DNA from: Thermodesulfovibrio aggregans
GTDB lineage: Bacteria; Nitrospirota; Thermodesulfovibrionia; Thermodesulfovibrionales; Thermodesulfovibrionaceae
NCBI RefSeq assembly: GCF_001514535.1
Contig: NZ_BCNO01000001.1
Coordinates: forward strand, 726,040-790,039
Reading direction: 5' to 3'
DNA length: 64,000 nt
The stretch's first letter is position 1. Every line of letters starts with the position of its first letter. The notes under the pieces were generated by a model. It searched no databases. It had not been told where the DNA came from and saw nothing but the letters and a program-made list of their open reading frames with translations. The position numbers and the translations under genes were made by a program. Below are positions 2,805-24,709 of this stretch, piece after piece.

Positions 2805-3968
2805 ATGCAGATAGAGTATGCAGAAAGAATAAGAACTCTGCCACCATATCTTTTTGCAGCTATTGATCAGATGAAAAAAGAAGCTCTCTTAAAAGGAGCG
2901 GATCTTATTGATTTAAGTATAGGTGATCCTGATATTCCTACTCCTTCCCATATTGTTGAGGCAATGAAAAAGGCTGTTGAAAAACCAGAGCATCACAGAT
3001 ATCCAAGTTATGAAGGGATGCTGTCATTTAGAAAGGCTGTTTCAGATTGGTATAAAAGAAGATTCAATGTAGAGCTTGATCCTGAAGGAGAAGTTTTAAG
3101 TCTAATTGGTTCAAAGGAAGGAATTGGGCATATTCCTCTTGCTTTTGTTGATCCAGGAGATATTGTCCTTGTTCCCTCTCCTGGATATCCTGTTTATCCT
3201 GTTGGAACAAAATTTGCCGGCGGTATTCCCTATTTCATGCCTCTCAAAGAAGAGAATGATTTCTTGCCAGACCTTGATTCTATTCCAGAAGATGTCTGCA
3301 AAAAAGCAAAACTCATGTTTATAAACTATCCTAATAATCCAACGAGTGCTGTTGCTGATAAGAAATTCTATGAAAAAGTCATAGAGTTTGCTAAAAAATA
3401 TAATATCATTGTTTGTCATGATGCAGCTTACTCAGAGGTTTACTATGAAGAAAAACCTATCAGTTTCATGCAAATAGATGGAGCTAAAGAGGTTGGAATG
3501 GAGTTTCATTCTCTTTCAAAAACCTATAATATGACTGGATGGAGAATAGGATTTGCTGTAGGAAACAAAGAAGTTCTATCAGGACTCGGAAAAGTTAAAA
3601 CAAATCTTGACTCCGGTGTTTTTCAGGCCATTCAGGAAGCGAGCATTGTAGCACTTGAAACAGATGATAAAATTTTAAAAGAAATAAGAGATATTTATAA
3701 AGAAAGAAGAGATGTTTTGTACGAAGGACTTAGAGATGCAGGATTTGAAGTTAAAAAACCTATGGCAACTTTTTATCTATGGGTTAAAGTTCCAAAAGAG
3801 ACAAACTCTATAGATTTTGTTGCCAAGCTTTTAAAAGAGGCGGAAGTTTTATGCACACCTGGAGTTGGATTTGGTGAATACGGAGAGGGATATATAAGGT
3901 TTGCTCTTACGCAATCTAAAGAAAGAATAAAAGAGGCTGTAGAAAGAATCAGGAGGCTTAAGCTGTGA
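2805..3968 (+). CDS. dapL: LL-diaminopimelate aminotransferase
   Basis: A class I/II PLP aminotransferase of 387 residues, full family length. It carries the NPNNPT motif (175-180) and the PLP-binding lysine K239 in SLSKTYNMTGWR. Overall it resembles DapL, which converts tetrahydrodipicolinate directly to LL-diaminopimelate for lysine and peptidoglycan synthesis. The start is preceded by AAGGAGGG. The stop overlaps the next gene by 4 nt, giving a translationally coupled trio with the YjbQ and YkgJ proteins. Another substrate of this aminotransferase subgroup cannot be excluded from sequence alone; asd at 44.5 kb supplies the same pathway. Confidence 0.85.
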   Translation: MQIEYAERIRTLPPYLFAAIDQMKKEALLKGADLIDLSIGDPDIPTPSHIVEAMKKAVEKPEHHRYPSYEGMLSFRKAVSDWYKRRFNVELDPEGEVLSLIGSKEGIGHIPLAFVDPGDIVLVPSPGYPVYPVGTKFAGGIPYFMPLKEENDFLPDLDSIPEDVCKKAKLMFINYPNNPTSAVADKKFYEKVIEFAKKYNIIVCHDAAYSEVYYEEKPISFMQIDGAKEVGMEFHSLSKTYNMTGWRIGFAVGNKEVLSGLGKVKTNLDSGVFQAIQEASIVALETDDKILKEIRDIYKERRDVLYEGLRDAGFEVKKPMATFYLWVKVPKETNSIDFVAKLLKEAEVLCTPGVGFGEYGEGYIRFALTQSKERIKEAVERIRRLKL

Positions 3969-7251: not shown

Positions 7252-9483
7252 TTAGCTACATCTGGTAAATCCACAACTATGACAGATAACACAACCCTCT
7301 TCATAGGATAGAAAACTTCCACACTCAGGGCAAGCTCCATAGTGAGCTACTTCATCGGATTTTGAATCAATCTGTGGTGCATCTTTTTTCTGCAAATTAT
7401 AAGAACTTCTTCTTATTTCAGCTTCAATTGCCTTTGCTATAGCATCTGAACAGCTTGTAATCTTTCCATTTCCTGACCAAACAGGAGCATGACATGAAAT
7501 ACCTTTAAGTTGTTTTACTATTTCTTCTGGTTCAATTCCACTTCTTAAGGCAAGAGATATGAGCCTTCCTATTGCTTCTGCTTGAGATGCTGCACAACCA
7601 CCTGCTTTTCCAATATTTGTAAAGACTTCAAAGAGTTTTTCCTCCTGATCTTTGTTAATTGTCACATAGAGATTACCACATCCTGTTTTCATTAGTCTTG
7701 TAACACCTTTAAGTACTTCAGGTCTTTTCCTTGGTTTTAAACTTATCTGTAAAGGCTGTGTTTCTGTTTTTCCCTTTTGTATGACCTGTCCCTGTCTTGA
7801 GCCGTCTCTATAAACTGTAACACCTTTACATCCAAGACGATAGGCAAGAAGATAAACCTCTCTTACATCATCCTCTGTTGCATGATTTGGAAGATTTACT
7901 GTTTTACTGACTGCGTTGTCAACATATCTTTGAAATGCTGCCTGCATGCGAATATGATCGGAAGGAGATATTTCATGGGCAGTAACAAATATTCTCTTAA
8001 TTTGTTCTGGAATTTCTTCAATTTCCTGAATTGAACCCTTTTCAGCTATTTTTTCTGCTAAAGCATCAGACCAGAGTCCTAACTTCTCCATTTCTTTTTT
8101 GAAATGGGGATTAACTTCTATAAGACGGGTTCCATCCATTACATTTCTTACAAAACATATGGCAAAAAGAGGTTCAATTCCAGAGGAGCATCCTGCAATT
8201 ATACTCAATGTTCCTGTTGGCGCTATTGTAGTTATTGTTGCATTTCTTAAAGGCATTTTATCGTAGTAGATGCTTTTTGGATAGTTTGGAAATGTACCCC
8301 TTTCTTTTGCAAGACTCTGAGAAGATAGTCTTCCTTCTTGCAGGATGAACTTCATTACCTCCTCTGCAAGGCTAAGAGCTTCCTTTGAGTTATAGGGAAT
8401 TTTTAGCTGAACAAGCATATCAGCCCAGCCCATAACACCAAGCCCTATTTTTCTGTTTGCTTTTGTATTTTTTTCTATTAGAGGTAAAGGATATTTATTT
8501 GCATCAATTACATTATCAAGAAAGTGAACAGCTTTCCATACAACTTCTCTTAGAAGTTCCCAATCAATAGAGTCTCCTTTTACCATTTTTGCGAGATTTA
8601 TTGAGCCGAGATTACAGGACTCATAAGGCAAAAGAGGCTGTTCTCCGCAGGGATTTGTTGCCTCAATCTCACCAAGAAGAGGGGTAGGATTTGCAGCATT
8701 TATTCTGTCAAGAAAAATAATTCCAGGTTCACCGTTTTTCCATGCCTGATGGACAATTAAATCAAATACTTCTTTTGCTTTTAATCTCTTCACAGTCTGT
8801 CCAGTTCTTGGATTTATTAAATCATACTCTTCGTCATTTATAACTGCTTTCATAAACTCTTCTGTAAGCCCAACAGAAATATTAAAGTTTGTGAATTTTG
8901 TAAGATCATCTTTGCAGGTTATAAACTCAATAATGTCAGGATGATCAACTCTTAAAACTCCCATATTAGCTCCTCTTCTTCGTCCTCCCTGCTTTACAGC
9001 TTCTGTTGCAGAATCAAAAACACTCATGAATGATACAGGACCTGAACTTATTCCTTTTGTTGAACCTACCACATCTCCTTTTGGTCTCAGACGAGAAAAG
9101 CTAAATCCGGTTCCTCCACCTGATTTATGTATTATTGCAGCATATTTTACGGCATCAAAGATTCCCTCCATAGAGTCCTCAACGGGTAGTACAAAGCATG
9201 CACTGAGTTGCCCAAGAGGAGTTCCTGCATTCATTAAAGTTGGAGAGTTTGGAAGGAATTTCAGTGAAGTCATAAGCTCATAAAACTCTTCTTTTGTTTT
9301 ACTGATTTCTTTTTCAGATTTCCCATACATTGCATCTATTTGAGCAATTGCTGTGGCTACCCGATCAAATAACTCTTCTGGTGTCTCTACAATTTTACCT
9401 TCTTCATTTTTTTTGAGATATCTTCTCTTTAAAACTTCTATTGCATTGTTTGTCAGTTCAAGCTTTACCTTTATCTTTGCCAT
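7252..9483 (-). CDS. nrdJ: Vitamin B12-dependent (class II) ribonucleotide reductase
   Basis: A protein of 743 residues. The N-terminal ATP-cone-less reductase barrel carries PTLMNAGTPLGQLSACFVLPVEDS, GGTGFSFSRLRP, NPCGEQPLLPYESCNLGSINL and the TTIAPTGTLSIIAG loop. A TSCxD-type region follows, and a C-terminal zinc-ribbon/redox tail contains CPECGSFLSYEEGC and CHSCGFTRC. Such enzymes reduce ribonucleotides with adenosylcobalamin and do not need oxygen, consistent with an anaerobe. AAAAAGGAGGATTAAG precedes the ATG. No cobalamin riboswitch is visible in the short 59-bp divergent spacer. Confidence 0.92.
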   Translation of the reverse strand: MAKIKVKLELTNNAIEVLKRRYLKKNEEGKIVETPEELFDRVATAIAQIDAMYGKSEKEISKTKEEFYELMTSLKFLPNSPTLMNAGTPLGQLSACFVLPVEDSMEGIFDAVKYAAIIHKSGGGTGFSFSRLRPKGDVVGSTKGISSGPVSFMSVFDSATEAVKQGGRRRGANMGVLRVDHPDIIEFITCKDDLTKFTNFNISVGLTEEFMKAVINDEEYDLINPRTGQTVKRLKAKEVFDLIVHQAWKNGEPGIIFLDRINAANPTPLLGEIEATNPCGEQPLLPYESCNLGSINLAKMVKGDSIDWELLREVVWKAVHFLDNVIDANKYPLPLIEKNTKANRKIGLGVMGWADMLVQLKIPYNSKEALSLAEEVMKFILQEGRLSSQSLAKERGTFPNYPKSIYYDKMPLRNATITTIAPTGTLSIIAGCSSGIEPLFAICFVRNVMDGTRLIEVNPHFKKEMEKLGLWSDALAEKIAEKGSIQEIEEIPEQIKRIFVTAHEISPSDHIRMQAAFQRYVDNAVSKTVNLPNHATEDDVREVYLLAYRLGCKGVTVYRDGSRQGQVIQKGKTETQPLQISLKPRKRPEVLKGVTRLMKTGCGNLYVTINKDQEEKLFEVFTNIGKAGGCAASQAEAIGRLISLALRSGIEPEEIVKQLKGISCHAPVWSGNGKITSCSDAIAKAIEAEIRRSSYNLQKKDAPQIDSKSDEVAHYGACPECGSFLSYEEGCVICHSCGFTRCS

Positions 9484-14237: not shown

Positions 14238-14738
14238 TTGAAAAGAGCGACATTTATTATCATCGTTTTTTTTCTTTGTTTTACTTTCATTGCTCAGGAT
14301 AGCATCGGACAGTTGAATTTAAATCCGCCAAAAGTTAACGAAAATATTCAAAAACAACAACAGCAAACTCAGCAACCACAAAAACCCAACCAAAATATTC
14401 CAAAACCGCAACAGCAACAGATACCACAGCCACCAAAGCTTAATGAAAACATCCCAAAACAACAACCACAACCTACAGTAAGAAGTAGAGAATTTCGAAA
14501 CATTGACTTTATAGCCGAGCCACACGCACGAAGTAGAGAGTTCAGGAACATTGACTTTATAGCCGAACCACACGCACGGAGTAGAGAATTTCGAGATATT
14601 GACTTTATAGCCGAACTTCATGCAAGAAGTAGAGAGTTAAGAGATATTGACTTTATAGCAGAGCCACACGCACGGAGCAGAGAATTCAGGAACATTGACT
14701 TTATAGGGGTAAAAATTCTTGATTTAGAGAGAAAATAA
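14238..14738 (+). CDS. Exported Gln/Pro-rich protein with five 16-residue repeats
   Basis: Not recognised. A protein of 166 residues starting at TTG behind a very strong AAGGAGGTGA. It has a signal peptide (residues 1 to ~24), a Gln/Pro/Asn/Lys-rich linker (25-80) containing two PPKxNENIxKQ copies, and then four full and one partial copy of a 16-residue unit (RSREFRNIDFIAEPHA) at 82-156, ending LDLERK. The unit alternates a basic RSREFR segment and a hydrophobic IDFIAE segment. The protein is presumably periplasmic or extracellular. It heads a three-gene run of exported proteins. No enzymatic motif is seen. Confidence 0.7.
   Translation: MKRATFIIIVFFLCFTFIAQDSIGQLNLNPPKVNENIQKQQQQTQQPQKPNQNIPKPQQQQIPQPPKLNENIPKQQPQPTVRSREFRNIDFIAEPHARSREFRNIDFIAEPHARSREFRDIDFIAELHARSRELRDIDFIAEPHARSREFRNIDFIGVKILDLERK
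14481..14705 (+). repeat. Tandem 48-bp coding repeat, ~4.7 copies
   Basis: Consecutive 48-bp units differ by only a few substitutions (for example CGAAACATT, AGGAACATT or CGAGATATT at the same place), so they are recent duplications. They keep the reading frame and encode the 16-residue repeat of the surrounding exported protein. Copy number could vary between strains by recombination. Confidence 0.9.
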
Positions 14739-17810: not shown

Positions 17811-19745
17811 ATGAATCTTAAAAATCTCTCATTGAATACGAAGTTTACTCTTTCAATTATTTTAATAATTTTTGCCTTTTGTGTGCTCTTTTCTTTTCTT
17901 ATTTATTATCATCTCAAGCAAAAAGTAATAGAAGATGCACATGAAAAAACAAGAATCATTATTACTCAAATGGATGCACTTGGTAAGTATGTTAAAGAAG
18001 AACTGAGACCAGCTATTTTTAAACTTCTTCATGAGACAGGTAAAAAAGATGAGTTTATTGTTGAGGGAATGTCAACAACTCATGTAAGACTTAATGTGAT
18101 GCGAAGATTCAATAATAAAATAGGAAATTATATTTACAAAAGAGTTTCTTTACAACCTATAAATCCTGAACATCAGGCAAATTCATTAGATATGAGACTG
18201 ATTGATTATTTCCAAAATAATTCCAATAGCGAATCATGGAGTGGAATAGTGAAAATAGAAGGACAAGAGTTTCTCATAATAGCAAAGCCTATCATTGCTG
18301 AAAAGGAGTGTTTGATCTGTCATGGAAAGGTTAAGGATGCCCCAAAGGCTTTACTTAAGATGTTTCCTCGTAACAGGGATTTTACATGGAAAGAGGGAGA
18401 AATAATGGGAGTAGAGTCAGTATCTCTTCCAATTGCTTCTACTTTAGGAGAGATAAAAGGTATTGCAATCTCTACTTTTTTGTTTGGTTTGATTTCTCTA
18501 ATTTTCCTTTTTGTTGGACTTCAGGGTGCTTTTTGGAGTTTTGTGATTAAGCCCTTAAAAAGATTGAGTTTACTATTCAGAGGAATTGTCAATGGAACAG
18601 AACCTCTTAATCAAACAATTGAGGTAAAAACAAAGGATGAAATTGGTGAATTAATCTTTTCTTTTAACCAAATGTCAAAGTACTTATTTGAAGCTCAGGA
18701 GGCTACTAAAAAATATGCTGAAACTCTTCAGACAATTTTTGAAGGTATCACTGACCCGCTTGCTCTTGTAAATCCTGATTGCACAGTAGAGATGACAAAC
18801 CATGCTTACAGAAAATGGATTTTAGAGGGCAGAGCTGCGGTATTCAATGAAAAATGTGATCCTGAAAAAATTGATCCGGATAAATTTTGTCCAGTTCATT
18901 TTCTTAAAAAAGTAATTGATACAAAAAAACCTTTTTCAGAATACTGGGAAGGAGAGGATCAAAAACATTACTTTATTCATCTTTATCCAATTTTTAACGA
19001 GAAAGGAGATGTTATAAAAGTTGTTCACTATGTTAAGGATATTACTGAAAAGAGAAAAATTGAAGAACAGATGAGAATTACTGAAAAACTTGCAGCAATT
19101 GGACAGCTTTCAGCTGGATTAGCACATGAAATTAATAATCCTCTTGGCGGAATCAGACTTTGTTTTAATAATTTAATAGCAACTGAGATGGATGAAGAAA
19201 CGAAAAAAAGACACATTGAAGTGATAAATCAGGGATTGATGAAGATTCAGGAAATAATAAAACAACTTCTTGATTTTTCAAAACAAAGCGAGCTTATTGT
19301 ATCTTTGGTTTCTGTAAATACTCTTGTAGAGAATGTTTTAAAATTAACTGACTATTTGATATCAAAAAAGGGAATTAAAGTTGTTAAAAAACTCTCACCG
19401 GATATACCAAAAATCATGATTGATTCAAATAAAATAGAACAGGTTTTTTTAAATATCGTTCTTAATGCTATTCAAGCAATGGATGGTAAAGAAGGAACTT
19501 TAACCATTCAAACTTATCTAAAAGATGATTTTTGTTGTATTTCCTTCACCGATACCGGGCCTGGTATTCCTGAAAACATTCTTCCAAAAATTTTTGATCC
19601 ATTTTTCACAACAAAACCAGTTGGACAGGGCACAGGACTTGGACTTTCAGTAAGTAAATCTATTGTTGAGCAACACAATGGTAGAATTACTGTTGAAACT
19701 TCCAGAAATGGAACTACTTTTATAGTGGAGTTACCACTAAAATGA
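17811..19745 (+). CDS. Histidine kinase with heme-binding-type (Tll0287-like) sensor domain
   Basis: A protein of 644 residues. It has TM1 (~12-33) and a DUF3365/Tll0287-like periplasmic domain (~40-210) holding a c-type heme motif CxxCH at 167-171 (CLICH). TM2 (~216-240), HAMP (~240-295), PAS (~300-412), HisKA with H439 ([15 protein letters not shown]) and HATPase ([24 protein letters not shown]) follow. Family members use covalently bound heme to sense redox state or gas. The gene overlaps the NtrC-type regulator by 4 nt, so they form a cognate pair. Confidence 0.88.
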
Positions 19746-21112
19746 AAGAGAGAATTCTCATAGTTGAAGATGATCCTGCGATGAATCTCGGGATGTATCA
19801 TTTTCTTCGTTCCTCAGGATATGAAGTAAAATCCTGTGAGGACGGTACAAAAGCTCTTGAGATAATTGAATCAGACAAATTTGATATTGCTATAATTGAC
19901 CTAAAACTTCCTGGAGTTGATGGACTTACTCTTCTTAAACACATAAAGAGTAAGTCTCCACAAACAGGAGTAATAATCATAACTGCTTTTGCTGAGGTAA
20001 AGACTGCAGTTCAAGCAATAAAAGATGGTGCCTTTGATTACATTGCAAAACCATTTACAAATGAGGAACTTTTTTTAGTAATACAAAGATTTTCAAAATT
20101 TAGAAGCCTTGAAAAGGAAGTAAGATACCTTACTGAGCTTGTTAAGAAAAAAGAGGGATTTGAAGAGATAATTTGTAGCAGTCCTGCAATGAAGGAAATT
20201 CTTGACAAAATTGATGTAGTTGCAAAAACAGATGTACCTGTTTTAATTCAAGGAGAAAGTGGAACAGGTAAAGAACTTATAGCAAACGAAATTCAAAGAC
20301 GAAGTTTAAGAAAAGATAAACCTTATATTAAAATAAACTGCGCTGCTATTCCAGAGACTCTTTTTGAATCAGAGCTTTTTGGTTATGAAAAAGGAGCTTT
20401 TACAGGAGCCAGTGAAAAGAAAAAGGGTAAATTTGAGCTTGCAAATGGAGGTACATTATTTTTTGATGAAATTGGTGACATGCCAGTAAGCCTTCAGGCA
20501 AAACTTTTAAGAGTAATTGAAGAAGGCAGTGTTTATCCTCTTGGTGGAAAAGAACCAGTAAAGATTGATGTAAGATGCATATATGCAACAAGCAAAAATC
20601 TTAAAGAACTTATAAAAAATGAAAAGTTCAGGGAAGATCTTTTTTACAGAATAAATGTCATTCCTATTGTAATACCCCCTCTAAGAGAAAGGAAAGATGA
20701 CATACCTCCATTGATTGATCATTTTTTGAAAAATTTTTCTGAAAAGTACGGTAAAAAAAATATTACCATGTCCTCTTCAGCCTATGAAGTTTTATTGCGT
20801 TACGATTATCCTGGAAATGTTAGAGAGCTAAAGCATGTAATAGAGAGGGCTGTTCTTCTTTCAAAAGATGGCGTGATTGATATTAAACATCTTCCTGAAG
20901 AGTTTTATAAGGTGGAGTCATTTCAAAAGCAATGTTTTTCTGGTAATTTATCTCTTAAAGAATGTCTTGAAAACTTTGAAAAGAGTATCATACTAAGGGC
21001 TCTTCAGGAATGCGGATGGAAAAAGTCAGAGGCAGCAAAAAAACTTGGAATAAGCAGAAAAGCTTTGTGGGAAAAAATAAAACTTTACCGAATTAAAGGG
21101 CCTGATTTATAA
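19742..21112 (+). CDS. NtrC-family sigma-54-dependent response regulator
   Basis: A protein of 456 residues. It has a receiver domain (1-120) with phospho-acceptor D53 ([11 protein letters not shown]) and K103 (AKPF). A central AAA+ domain has Walker A GESGTGKE (171-178), the sigma-54 contact loop GAFTGA (218-223) and a Walker [14 protein letters not shown]-terminal Fis-type helix-turn-helix follows ([23 protein letters not shown]). It activates sigma-54 promoters when phosphorylated by the upstream heme-type kinase. Target genes are unknown. Confidence 0.92.
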
Positions 21113-21157: not shown

Positions 21158-21189
21158 TTTAGAGATGTTCCACGTGGAACATCTCTAAA
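21158..21189. other. 32-bp perfect palindrome with a parS-like core; bidirectional terminator
   Basis: Sixteen base pairs of perfect dyad symmetry without a loop gap sit between the convergent NtrC-type and paaK genes. The central 16 bp (21166-21181) read TGTTCCACGTGGAACA, matching the chromosomal parS consensus (tGTTtCACGTGaAACa) in its symmetric C/G form, as in Pseudomonas-type sites. The T- and A-runs flanking the stem (TTT on the left, AAAAAA on the right) also allow intrinsic termination in the minus direction and weakly in the plus direction. ParB binding is inferred from the motif only; no parAB is in the window. Confidence 0.6.
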
Positions 21190-21192
21190 AAA

Positions 21193-22470
21193 TTAAATTT
21201 TCTTTCTTTTGTCAACGATTCTTACTGCTTTACCGGGGACTCTCTGAATTGTTCCTTCCGGAACAACTTGAATTTTACTGTGAAAACCTAAAAAGTCATA
21301 TAGTTCAAGATCAAGATGCTCGAGTTCTTTTTGGGTAATTCCATTGTCAGCCTTTTCAACAATGATTGTCATCTCATCTTTGCCTTTCACAGTTTCTATA
21401 ACAAGCTGATAATATGGAGAAAGTCCTTTATATTTAAGAAGAATTTGCTCAACCTGTGATGGATAGAAGTTAACTCCTTTAACTTTGAGCATGTCATCTG
21501 TTCTTCCACGGATTCTGCTTACGCGAACATGGGTTCTTCCACATTCGCATTTTTCATATGACAGAATGCTTGATATGTCCCTTGTTCTATATCGTATAAG
21601 CGGTAAACCTTCGCGGGTAAGAGTAGTAATAACCATTTCACCTTCCTTGCCTTCTGGCAAAGGTTGTCCTGTCTCAGAATCAATGATTTCAACAATATAG
21701 TGGTCTTCCCAGATATGGATACCTGCTCTTGCAGGACAGTCAATCCCAAGTCCTACACCACCTGTTTCAGTAAGTCCGATTATGTCAAAGGTTTTAACAT
21801 TCATCTCCTCTTCAATTCTTTTTCTGTATTCATCTGACCATGTTTCAGCTCCGAGTATGGCAACTCTAAGTTTGGTTTCTCTGAAATCAAATCCGCTTTC
21901 ACGGGCAACCTCTATCAGTCTTGCAGGATATGAAGCAATTGCTCCAATTGCTGTGACTTCAAGTTCTTTGATAAGTTTAAGTTGCATCAGAGACCTTCCT
22001 GCACCTGCTGGGACAATAAAGCAACCGAGGCGTTCTGCACCATAGTGAAAACCAAAGCCGCCATTAAAAAGTCCAAAAGAAGGCATTATCTGAATTCTAT
22101 CTTTTTCTGTAAGACCTGCACAGGAAAGGCATCTTGCCATTATCTCTCCCCATTGAGCTATATCGCCTCTTGTCATTGCATTTATTACAGGAACACCAGT
22201 TGTGCCAGAACTCATATGCATCCTTGCACAATCTGAAATATCACAGGCTATATGTTTGAAGGGATAACAATCTCTTAATTCATCTTTTGTTGTAAATGGA
22301 AGAAGTTTCAGGTCATCAAGGCTCTTTATGTCTTCAGGTTCAATGTGTTTATATTTTTCTTTAAGGCATGAATTTGAATTTTTTAAATACTTTAATGTTT
22401 TTCTCAGCCCTGCAATCTGAATTTTTTCAATTTCCTCTCTCGGAAGAGTTTCCTGGACTGAATTGAACAT
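21193..22470 (-). CDS. paaK: Phenylacetate-CoA ligase
   Basis: A protein of 425 residues, full length. It has N-terminal ETLPREEIEKIQ, the AMP-binding P-loop SSGTTGVPV (~87-95), GLTETGG, the YRTRDISSI hinge, and C-terminal PGKAVRIVDKRK. It activates arylacetates to CoA thioesters with ATP. It lies downstream of and overlaps (44 nt) iorB, so the operon oxidises aryl pyruvates from aromatic amino acids and handles the resulting arylacetates; in the ligase direction it can also feed reductive synthesis of aromatic amino acids. Confidence 0.9.
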   Translation of the reverse strand: MFNSVQETLPREEIEKIQIAGLRKTLKYLKNSNSCLKEKYKHIEPEDIKSLDDLKLLPFTTKDELRDCYPFKHIACDISDCARMHMSSGTTGVPVINAMTRGDIAQWGEIMARCLSCAGLTEKDRIQIMPSFGLFNGGFGFHYGAERLGCFIVPAGAGRSLMQLKLIKELEVTAIGAIASYPARLIEVARESGFDFRETKLRVAILGAETWSDEYRKRIEEEMNVKTFDIIGLTETGGVGLGIDCPARAGIHIWEDHYIVEIIDSETGQPLPEGKEGEMVITTLTREGLPLIRYRTRDISSILSYEKCECGRTHVRVSRIRGRTDDMLKVKGVNFYPSQVEQILLKYKGLSPYYQLVIETVKGKDEMTIIVEKADNGITQKELEHLDLELYDFLGFHSKIQVVPEGTIQRVPGKAVRIVDKRKKI

Positions 22471-22900
22471 AATTACACCCCATTAAAAAAGATTTTTTAT
22501 TTTCTTCATCGAGGATTTTTGAAACATCATCACAATCAAATATCTTTGTTTTTTTTACGAAAATTCCGAGTAAAAAAGTATTCACATAACGCATTGGCAC
22601 AGAAGAAAGTGCTTTTTCTATTTCTTCTTTTGTAAACATAAAAATATTGCTACCAAAGGTTTTTGCATAATCTATCAAATCTTCACTTAGAAGAATAACC
22701 ATGTCAGCAGTGCCTCTGCGAACAAGACCACTGAGACCTTCTCCAATCTTCATCTGAATCTCTACTGTTCCACCTTTTTTAGCCATTCCTTTTATTTCTG
22801 TTGAACGAACTGAGACTGCTTTTTTGCTCGCTGCTTGAGCAATTATTCTTGAAAAAAATATTACACCCTGACCACCCTTACCAAGAATAACTAGTTTCAT
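22427..22900 (-). CDS. iorB: Indolepyruvate:ferredoxin oxidoreductase, beta subunit
   Basis: A protein of 157 residues of the pyruvate ferredoxin/flavodoxin oxidoreductase gamma-type domain: LGKGGQGVIFFSRIIAQAA at the N-terminus, RSTEIKGMAKKGGTVEIQMKIG, and ADMVILLSEDLI. It is shorter than usual (~190-200), with its C-terminus running 44 nt into paaK; the last residues (YVQFSPGNSSERG) do not look conserved, so the end may have been shortened by a frameshift. It partners the IorA subunit 9 nt upstream. Confidence 0.88.
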   Translation of the reverse strand: MKLVILGKGGQGVIFFSRIIAQAASKKAVSVRSTEIKGMAKKGGTVEIQMKIGEGLSGLVRRGTADMVILLSEDLIDYAKTFGSNIFMFTKEEIEKALSSVPMRYVNTFLLGIFVKKTKIFDCDDVSKILDEENKKSFLMGCNYVQFSPGNSSERGN

Positions 22901-22909
22901 AGTTTTTTA

Positions 22910-24709
22910 TTATATCAAAGTTATAGCTTTTGTAGGACAAACATTTATACAAAAACCACAACTAATGCAAAGAGTCTTATCAATATTAGCCTTTTTCTCC
23001 TCATCATCAAAGACTATTGCAGGGCATTCAAACTCTTTAATGCAAATCATGCAACCTTTGCATAGTTCTTTTTCTATTTTTACAGGTATTTTTGGATTGT
23101 TTTGAAGTCCTTGCTTTGTATTTATGCAAAGATGTCTGAAAACAATAACTGCTGGTTCATTATTTTTCTTTAAAAACTCTTTTGCTTCCTTCAGTGTGTT
23201 TAGAGAATTCTGAAAATCATAGGGATCTACAACTTTTATAAAGTTAACACCAAGAGATTTAACTATGTCTTCTATTGAAACTGTCTTTAATGGTTGACCA
23301 AGAAAGTCATGAGGAGTTGAAAGAGTTTTTTGATTTCCTGTCATTGCCACAGTTTGATTATCAAGGATTAAAAGCAAAAAGGGAACTCTATAATGAACTG
23401 CATCAATTAATGGAGGAATTCCTGAATGGAAAAAGGTAGAATCTCCAATTATTGAGATAACATCCTGTTTTTTATTCCCCAGTTCAAAAGCTTTACTGAA
23501 GGCAAAACCAAAGGAAACGCTTGCCCCCATATTTAAAACAGTATCTGTTGCTTCAAAATTAAGTGCAAGGGTGTAGCAACCTATATCTCCAGCATATATT
23601 GCCTTTTTACCAAATATTTTTTTTACTGAAAATAGTGCAGCTCTATGAGCACAGCCAGGGCAAAGAGAAGGTCTTTTGAGTGGTGGTATCTGAAGTGTTT
23701 TTCTATTTTTTATCAAACCAAGTTTTTCAAGAATTTCTTCACAAACCTCGGGTGTAATCTCTCCTTGTTTTGGAACCAAGCCATTTCTTCTTCCTTCTGT
23801 ATCAAGCTGTAACTCAATGACAGGATAGGTTTCCTCAACAGAGATTATACGATTGAATTTTTCTATAAAATTGAATTTTTCTTTTGATAAAGGATAGGGT
23901 ATGTCAAGTTTACAAAGAGTAATTTTATCCTGAAGCCCATACTCTTCAATAAGTTCATAAATATAGGCAAATACAGCGCCACTTGAAAGTACAAGAATCT
24001 CTCCATTAAAGAAGAGTTTTGGTTTATTTTGTGCTGCAATCTTTTCAATCTTTTCGTTTAATAATCTATGAAGTTCAAGTCTTTGTTTTGGAGTTGCTGC
24101 AAATCTGCTTAATTGTTTTGACCAGTCCTTTGAAGACTTAAAATGTGGCTGTATTGTGTTACTTGATTCGAAATCTTTTATATCAACGATTGCTCTTCCA
24201 TGGGAGATTCTTGTGGTGCTGCGAAGCATCACTGGAATGCTAAATTTTTCACTTAATTCAATGGCTTTTTGAGCGAATTCATAAGCTTCTTCAACAGTTG
24301 AGGGGTCTAAAACAGGAATTTTTGCTGCCATTGCCATAAATCTGCTGTCCTGTTCTGTCTGGGATGAGTGGGGACCTGGGTCATCAACGCTTATCACTAC
24401 AAAACCAGCTACTGTGCCCACATAGGCAGAATTCATAAAGGGATCCATTGCAACATTGAGACCTACTTGCTTCATTGTAACAGCACTTTTTATGTTTGCA
24501 AGACAGGCTCCATAGGCTATCTCATAGGCAACCTTTTCATTAATTGACCAGTCAGCAAAGGCTTTAAGAGAGAATTGTTTTATAAGGCTTTGGACAGCAG
24601 GAATAATCTCACTTGAAGGAGTTCCGGGATATCCGGTTATAAACCTAACTCCTCCATGAATTAAACCATGTGCAATTGCTTCATTACCAGAAAAATAAAA
24701 CTTGGACAT
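22910..24709 (-). CDS. iorA: Indolepyruvate:ferredoxin oxidoreductase, alpha subunit
   Basis: A protein of 599 residues. It has a pyrimidine-binding domain (GYPGTPSSEIIPA), a TPP-binding domain with GDIGCYTL and GDSTFFHSG, and a C-terminal 2x[4Fe-4S] ferredoxin module (CKGCMICIKEFECP and CISCGFCINVCP). It oxidatively decarboxylates aryl pyruvates to aryl-acetyl-CoA, passing electrons to ferredoxin. CPGCAHRAA is typical of the family. The ATG lacks a Shine-Dalgarno sequence and lies 6 nt after a -10 box. Confidence 0.92.
   Translation of the reverse strand: MSKFYFSGNEAIAHGLIHGGVRFITGYPGTPSSEIIPAVQSLIKQFSLKAFADWSINEKVAYEIAYGACLANIKSAVTMKQVGLNVAMDPFMNSAYVGTVAGFVVISVDDPGPHSSQTEQDSRFMAMAAKIPVLDPSTVEEAYEFAQKAIELSEKFSIPVMLRSTTRISHGRAIVDIKDFESSNTIQPHFKSSKDWSKQLSRFAATPKQRLELHRLLNEKIEKIAAQNKPKLFFNGEILVLSSGAVFAYIYELIEEYGLQDKITLCKLDIPYPLSKEKFNFIEKFNRIISVEETYPVIELQLDTEGRRNGLVPKQGEITPEVCEEILEKLGLIKNRKTLQIPPLKRPSLCPGCAHRAALFSVKKIFGKKAIYAGDIGCYTLALNFEATDTVLNMGASVSFGFAFSKAFELGNKKQDVISIIGDSTFFHSGIPPLIDAVHYRVPFLLLILDNQTVAMTGNQKTLSTPHDFLGQPLKTVSIEDIVKSLGVNFIKVVDPYDFQNSLNTLKEAKEFLKKNNEPAVIVFRHLCINTKQGLQNNPKIPVKIEKELCKGCMICIKEFECPAIVFDDEEKKANIDKTLCISCGFCINVCPTKAITLI

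Follow-up and report, generated by a model that had tools for sequence, protein, structure and literature searches.

A 32-bp perfect palindrome in a Thermodesulfovibrio genome is predicted to carry its single chromosomal parS site, displaced from dnaA

parS sites are the DNA anchors used for pulling sister chromosomes apart. In Pseudomonas aeruginosa, parS2 and parS3 consist of the 16-bp perfect palindrome TGTTCCACGTGGAACA, have the highest ParB affinity in gel shifts/EMSA (PMC4368675) and are among four sites bound by ParB in vivo as determined by ChIP-seq (PMC5098823). The identical 16-bp palindrome was found in a Thermodesulfovibrio genome (Nitrospirota; 2.0 Mb, three contigs) that also encodes a ParAB system; whereas four strong sites lie close to oriC in P. 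aeruginosa (PMC4368675, PMC5098823), a single one is present here, which forms the tip of a longer palindrome and is separated from dnaA by 261 kb. The parS of Myxococcus xanthus, TGTTCCACGTGGAACG (consensus from PMC7022226), is one base apart from this sequence and occurs at 22 sites in the ori domain (PMC7022226), versus one here. In position and hairpin, the locus also resembles the bidirectional intrinsic terminators of convergent genes, from which it differs in having no adjacent U-tract on either strand and in the sequence constraint on its apical 16 bp. Searches of a literature library returned no paper on ParB/parS in Thermodesulfovibrio and nothing relevant on parS within terminators.

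The window analyzed here is a 64,000-nucleotide stretch of contig C1 (C1:726040-790039), and the features of interest within it are collected in Table 1. From sequence and context, the palindrome is predicted with high confidence to be the single chromosomal parS of this species, very probably functional and the sole copy in the genome, supplying a probable centromere for a Nitrospirota genus. The element is ordinary in kind; its hairpin setting is unusual and its displacement instructive.

Table 1. Positions, strands and supporting observations for features of the window (local coordinates).
Feature	Position	Strand	Basis or remark
Loop-less perfect palindrome, 32 bp	21158..21189	.	Arm comparison, RNA fold
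parS core TGTTCCACGTGGAACA, predicted ParB nucleation site	21166..21181	.	Exact motif match (0 mismatches), conservation, identity to P. aeruginosa parS2/parS3
Left outer arm TTTAGAGA, outside parS consensus	21158..21165	.	Compensatory changes keep pairing in orthologous spacers
Right outer arm TCTCTAAA	21182..21189	.	Orthologous-spacer comparison
Decayed second parS AGTTCCAAAAGAGACA	3788..3803	+	Inside 387-aa aminotransferase-like gene 2805-3968
NtrC/AtoC-type response regulator gene	19742..21112	+	3' end 45 bp from palindrome
Phenylacetate-CoA ligase (PaaK)-like gene	21193..22470	-	Stop codon 3 bp from palindrome
Indolepyruvate oxidoreductase-like beta and alpha genes, co-travelling with paaK-parS	22427..24709	-	

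The palindrome comprises two arms of 16 nt each (21158-21173 and 21174-21189), 100% complementary and with a 0-nt spacer. Its coordinates, the parS core at its centre and its location between the convergent NtrC-type and paaK genes (Table 1) are exactly as the first-pass annotation had described them. When folded as single-stranded RNA, it gave a stem of 14 bp with an energy of -21.2 kcal/mol (z -7.0). Loop-less perfect palindromes with arms of at least 10 occur 3 times in 424 kb of the host genome and 0 times in Markov simulations, and the palindrome is beyond chance. The exact 32-mer had no match in genome_contigs, a collection from which near records may be absent, and Rfam contained no family covering the hairpin. 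Approximately 5 kb from dnaA, at C1:480263 (position 14263 of stretch L072), a loop-less perfect palindrome of 38 bp carries A and T tracts and is a canonical bidirectional terminator.

Searching the 2.0-Mb genome with TGTTYCACGTGRAACA returned 1 exact match and 0 with one mismatch, the remaining matches having at least 2 mismatches and being scattered; the check proposed by the first-pass annotation, a genome search for the 16-mer at 0-1 mismatch, therefore yielded a single copy and no scattered ones. That annotation had named a genome without parB as the outcome that would speak against it, and both a parAB operon and smc are present: the ParA and ParB genes are adjacent at C1:648.7-650.3 kb, smc is at C1:651.6-655.0 kb, 1.3 kb beyond parAB, and the ParA, ParB and SMC reading frames are open. 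Host ParB contains GKDR and MGH at a 28-residue spacing, which matches the positions of R173 and G201 in Caulobacter ParB (counted by hand), residues of the type that mark parS versus Noc specificity (PMC7383237). Judged by these residues, host ParB is predicted to be of parS-type and not Noc-type specificity, and among solved structures it matches ParB and Spo0J proteins best, and better than Noc. Four features expected of a chromosomal parS were found, namely a consensus-matching 16-bp palindrome, ParA and ParB in the genome, parS-type residues in ParB, and few, non-scattered copies. Near parAB and dnaA, weak parS-like matches with 2-4 mismatches were not told apart from chance and were dropped. 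A second ParB-like gene at C1:687 kb (1402-2449 of stretch L017) gave a weak match, is apparently split across two frames and looks like a broken plasmid-type ParB.

The exact 16-mer is present in 125 of the 177 genomes of the order, at 1-3 copies each, and the reversed pattern, used as a control, in 0 of 177. The sequences flanking it share nothing across genera of the order, which identifies the 16-mer as the constrained unit. Of 24 genomes in which parB or dnaA shares a contig with the site, 19 have the site no more than 30 kb from one of the two genes (distances taken from match coordinates, copied by hand). It is approximately 1 kb from parB in G020, G021, G022 (one-mismatch form), G032, G033, G034, G043 and G052, and 10-25 kb from dnaA in the congeners G001, G002, G010 and G013. 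The parS identity put forward in the first-pass annotation is well supported by this linkage and the order-wide conservation, together with the ParAB-SMC set, the uniqueness of the site and its match to an experimentally bound parS. Counting against it, parB occurs without the exact site in some genomes of the order; in G018 and G059, which belong to one genus, parS is absent within one mismatch and ParB fits the family less well, and their ParB may use a shifted site. In G025 and G057, neither parB nor a convincing parS site was detected.

From established knowledge of ParABS systems, a dimer of host ParB (gene at C1:649 kb) would bind the central 16 bp, load as a CTP-dependent clamp and then spread over the flanking DNA; ParA would move the ParB-parS complexes apart, and ParB would recruit SMC. 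The eight-base outer arms lie outside the predicted core binding site and extend it into a hairpin, tipped by parS, at the 3' end of paaK.

Also counting against the parS assignment, 261 kb separate the site from dnaA (485.8 kb), versus at most 25 kb in four congeners; its distance from parB is 97 kb. oriC was not placed, as GC skew on sampled stretches of the host genome and G010 had no clean two-arm pattern, and a loose DnaA-box scan around dnaA found no obvious cluster. parS recurs at two positions in Thermodesulfovibrio, the paaK 3' end and the interior of the 387-aa aminotransferase-like gene, both of which are near dnaA in G013 and G010. In the host genome, dnaA-side synteny is kept up to C1:493977, and iorA-iorB-paaK-parS, now at 750786-747198, is inverted with respect to the genes that formerly adjoined it, with the aminotransferase block at 728-744 kb. 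This gene order indicates that a rearrangement moved and inverted the parS-paaK-ior block, which lies beside dnaA in congeners, and separated the dnaA block from the parS region by approximately 234 kb. The placement of the window in the origin-proximal part of the chromosome, as first proposed, therefore holds only loosely. In P. aeruginosa, parS positions between about -200 and +450 kb relative to oriC are tolerated (PMC5098823), and a Caulobacter strain with parS shifted by approximately 400 kb through an inversion has been studied (PMC5815017); a distance of 261 kb is thus compatible with function.

At the aminotransferase-gene position, AGTTCCACGTGGAACA in G013 and congeners corresponds to AGTTCCAAAAGAGACA here, with five mismatches, which leaves the paaK-side palindrome as the sole remaining parS copy. 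The decay of this companion and the distance from dnaA would both fit a former parS, non-working since the rearrangement, with segregation proceeding through undetected weaker sites or none. Such a loss of function is considered highly improbable: a palindrome still intact beside a degraded second copy suggests selection on the one that survived, the genome has no further match within one mismatch, the ParA, ParB and SMC genes are open, and in other species parS can work at distances of hundreds of kb from oriC (PMC5098823). As a predicted working site, the palindrome offers a natural case of parS shifted relative to dnaA and down to one copy, which bears on how close a coupling of parS to oriC is required.

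The outer arms were considered separately from the core. Arms of at least 11 were found at 16 of 63 distinct full-core sites, versus 1.1 expected from base composition; part of this excess arises because A is favoured at positions 9 and 10, and after hand correction for this bias the expectation is approximately 4 for arms of at least 11 and approximately 0.3, versus 7 observed, for arms of at least 13, counts that come from a non-random sample of sites related by descent and serve as a guide, not as a formal test. G000, G002 and G013 share a homologous outer stem in their orthologous spacers, and 4 of its 14 pairs differ at both bases and 0 at just one (6 of 500 shuffles of the comparison, suggestive only with n=3); in G013, one core pair is T/G, which would pair as U-G in the paaK-sense RNA. 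Long arms are found mostly at intergenic, often convergent, sites. In G010, G007, G015 and G001, most of the stem is missing, the arms being absent or short. In G024, another genome of the order, the parS core lies in a 44-bp perfect palindrome between divergent ORFs (position 8992 of stretch L082).

A structured 3' end is slightly favoured as the explanation of the arms, the main rival being mutational symmetrization, in which template-switch correction at a strong palindrome would produce the arms as a by-product, with no selected hairpin and the site still a parS. This origin is a serious prospect, put a little short of even; it accords with the stem that is short or absent in four genomes, with the long-armed G024 site between divergent ORFs and with a stem that lacks a U-tract, and is opposed by the mainly intergenic, often convergent, location of long arms and by the compensated changes among the three orthologous spacers, though template-switch correction could also yield the latter. 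The hairpin is probably a transcript-end or terminator-like structure, a call much less certain than that of parS; that the centromere of some Thermodesulfovibrio also serves as the apex of a transcript-end hairpin under selection is a tentative and rather doubtful proposal. Were it true, ParB nucleation and 3'-end formation would depend on a single shared element and might influence each other. The hairpin around parS, maintained by compensatory changes, is a small oddity open to testing.

Of the marks of an intrinsic terminator, the stable stem at a gene 3' end is present, and a U-tract directly after the stem is absent on both strands; a terminator scan gave no call at the palindrome. The earlier suggestion that the palindrome doubles as a bidirectional terminator is accordingly retained in part, favoured by the compensatory arm changes and the convergent 3'-end setting and weakened by the lack of a canonical U-tract. 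That it is merely such a terminator, resembling parS by chance, is extremely improbable: the convergent genes, the strong hairpin and the compensated outer arms would suit this, but the core alone is conserved order-wide, even inside coding genes, the U-tract and the scan call are missing, and elsewhere, at C1:480 kb, the genome has a loop-less terminator of the canonical kind, complete with A/T tracts.

The paaK-parS linkage is orthologous across seven Thermodesulfovibrio genomes. The PaaK-like protein itself has 80-86% identity to Thermodesulfobacterium and Caldimicrobium proteins, from another phylum, which suggests that its gene has undergone horizontal transfer.
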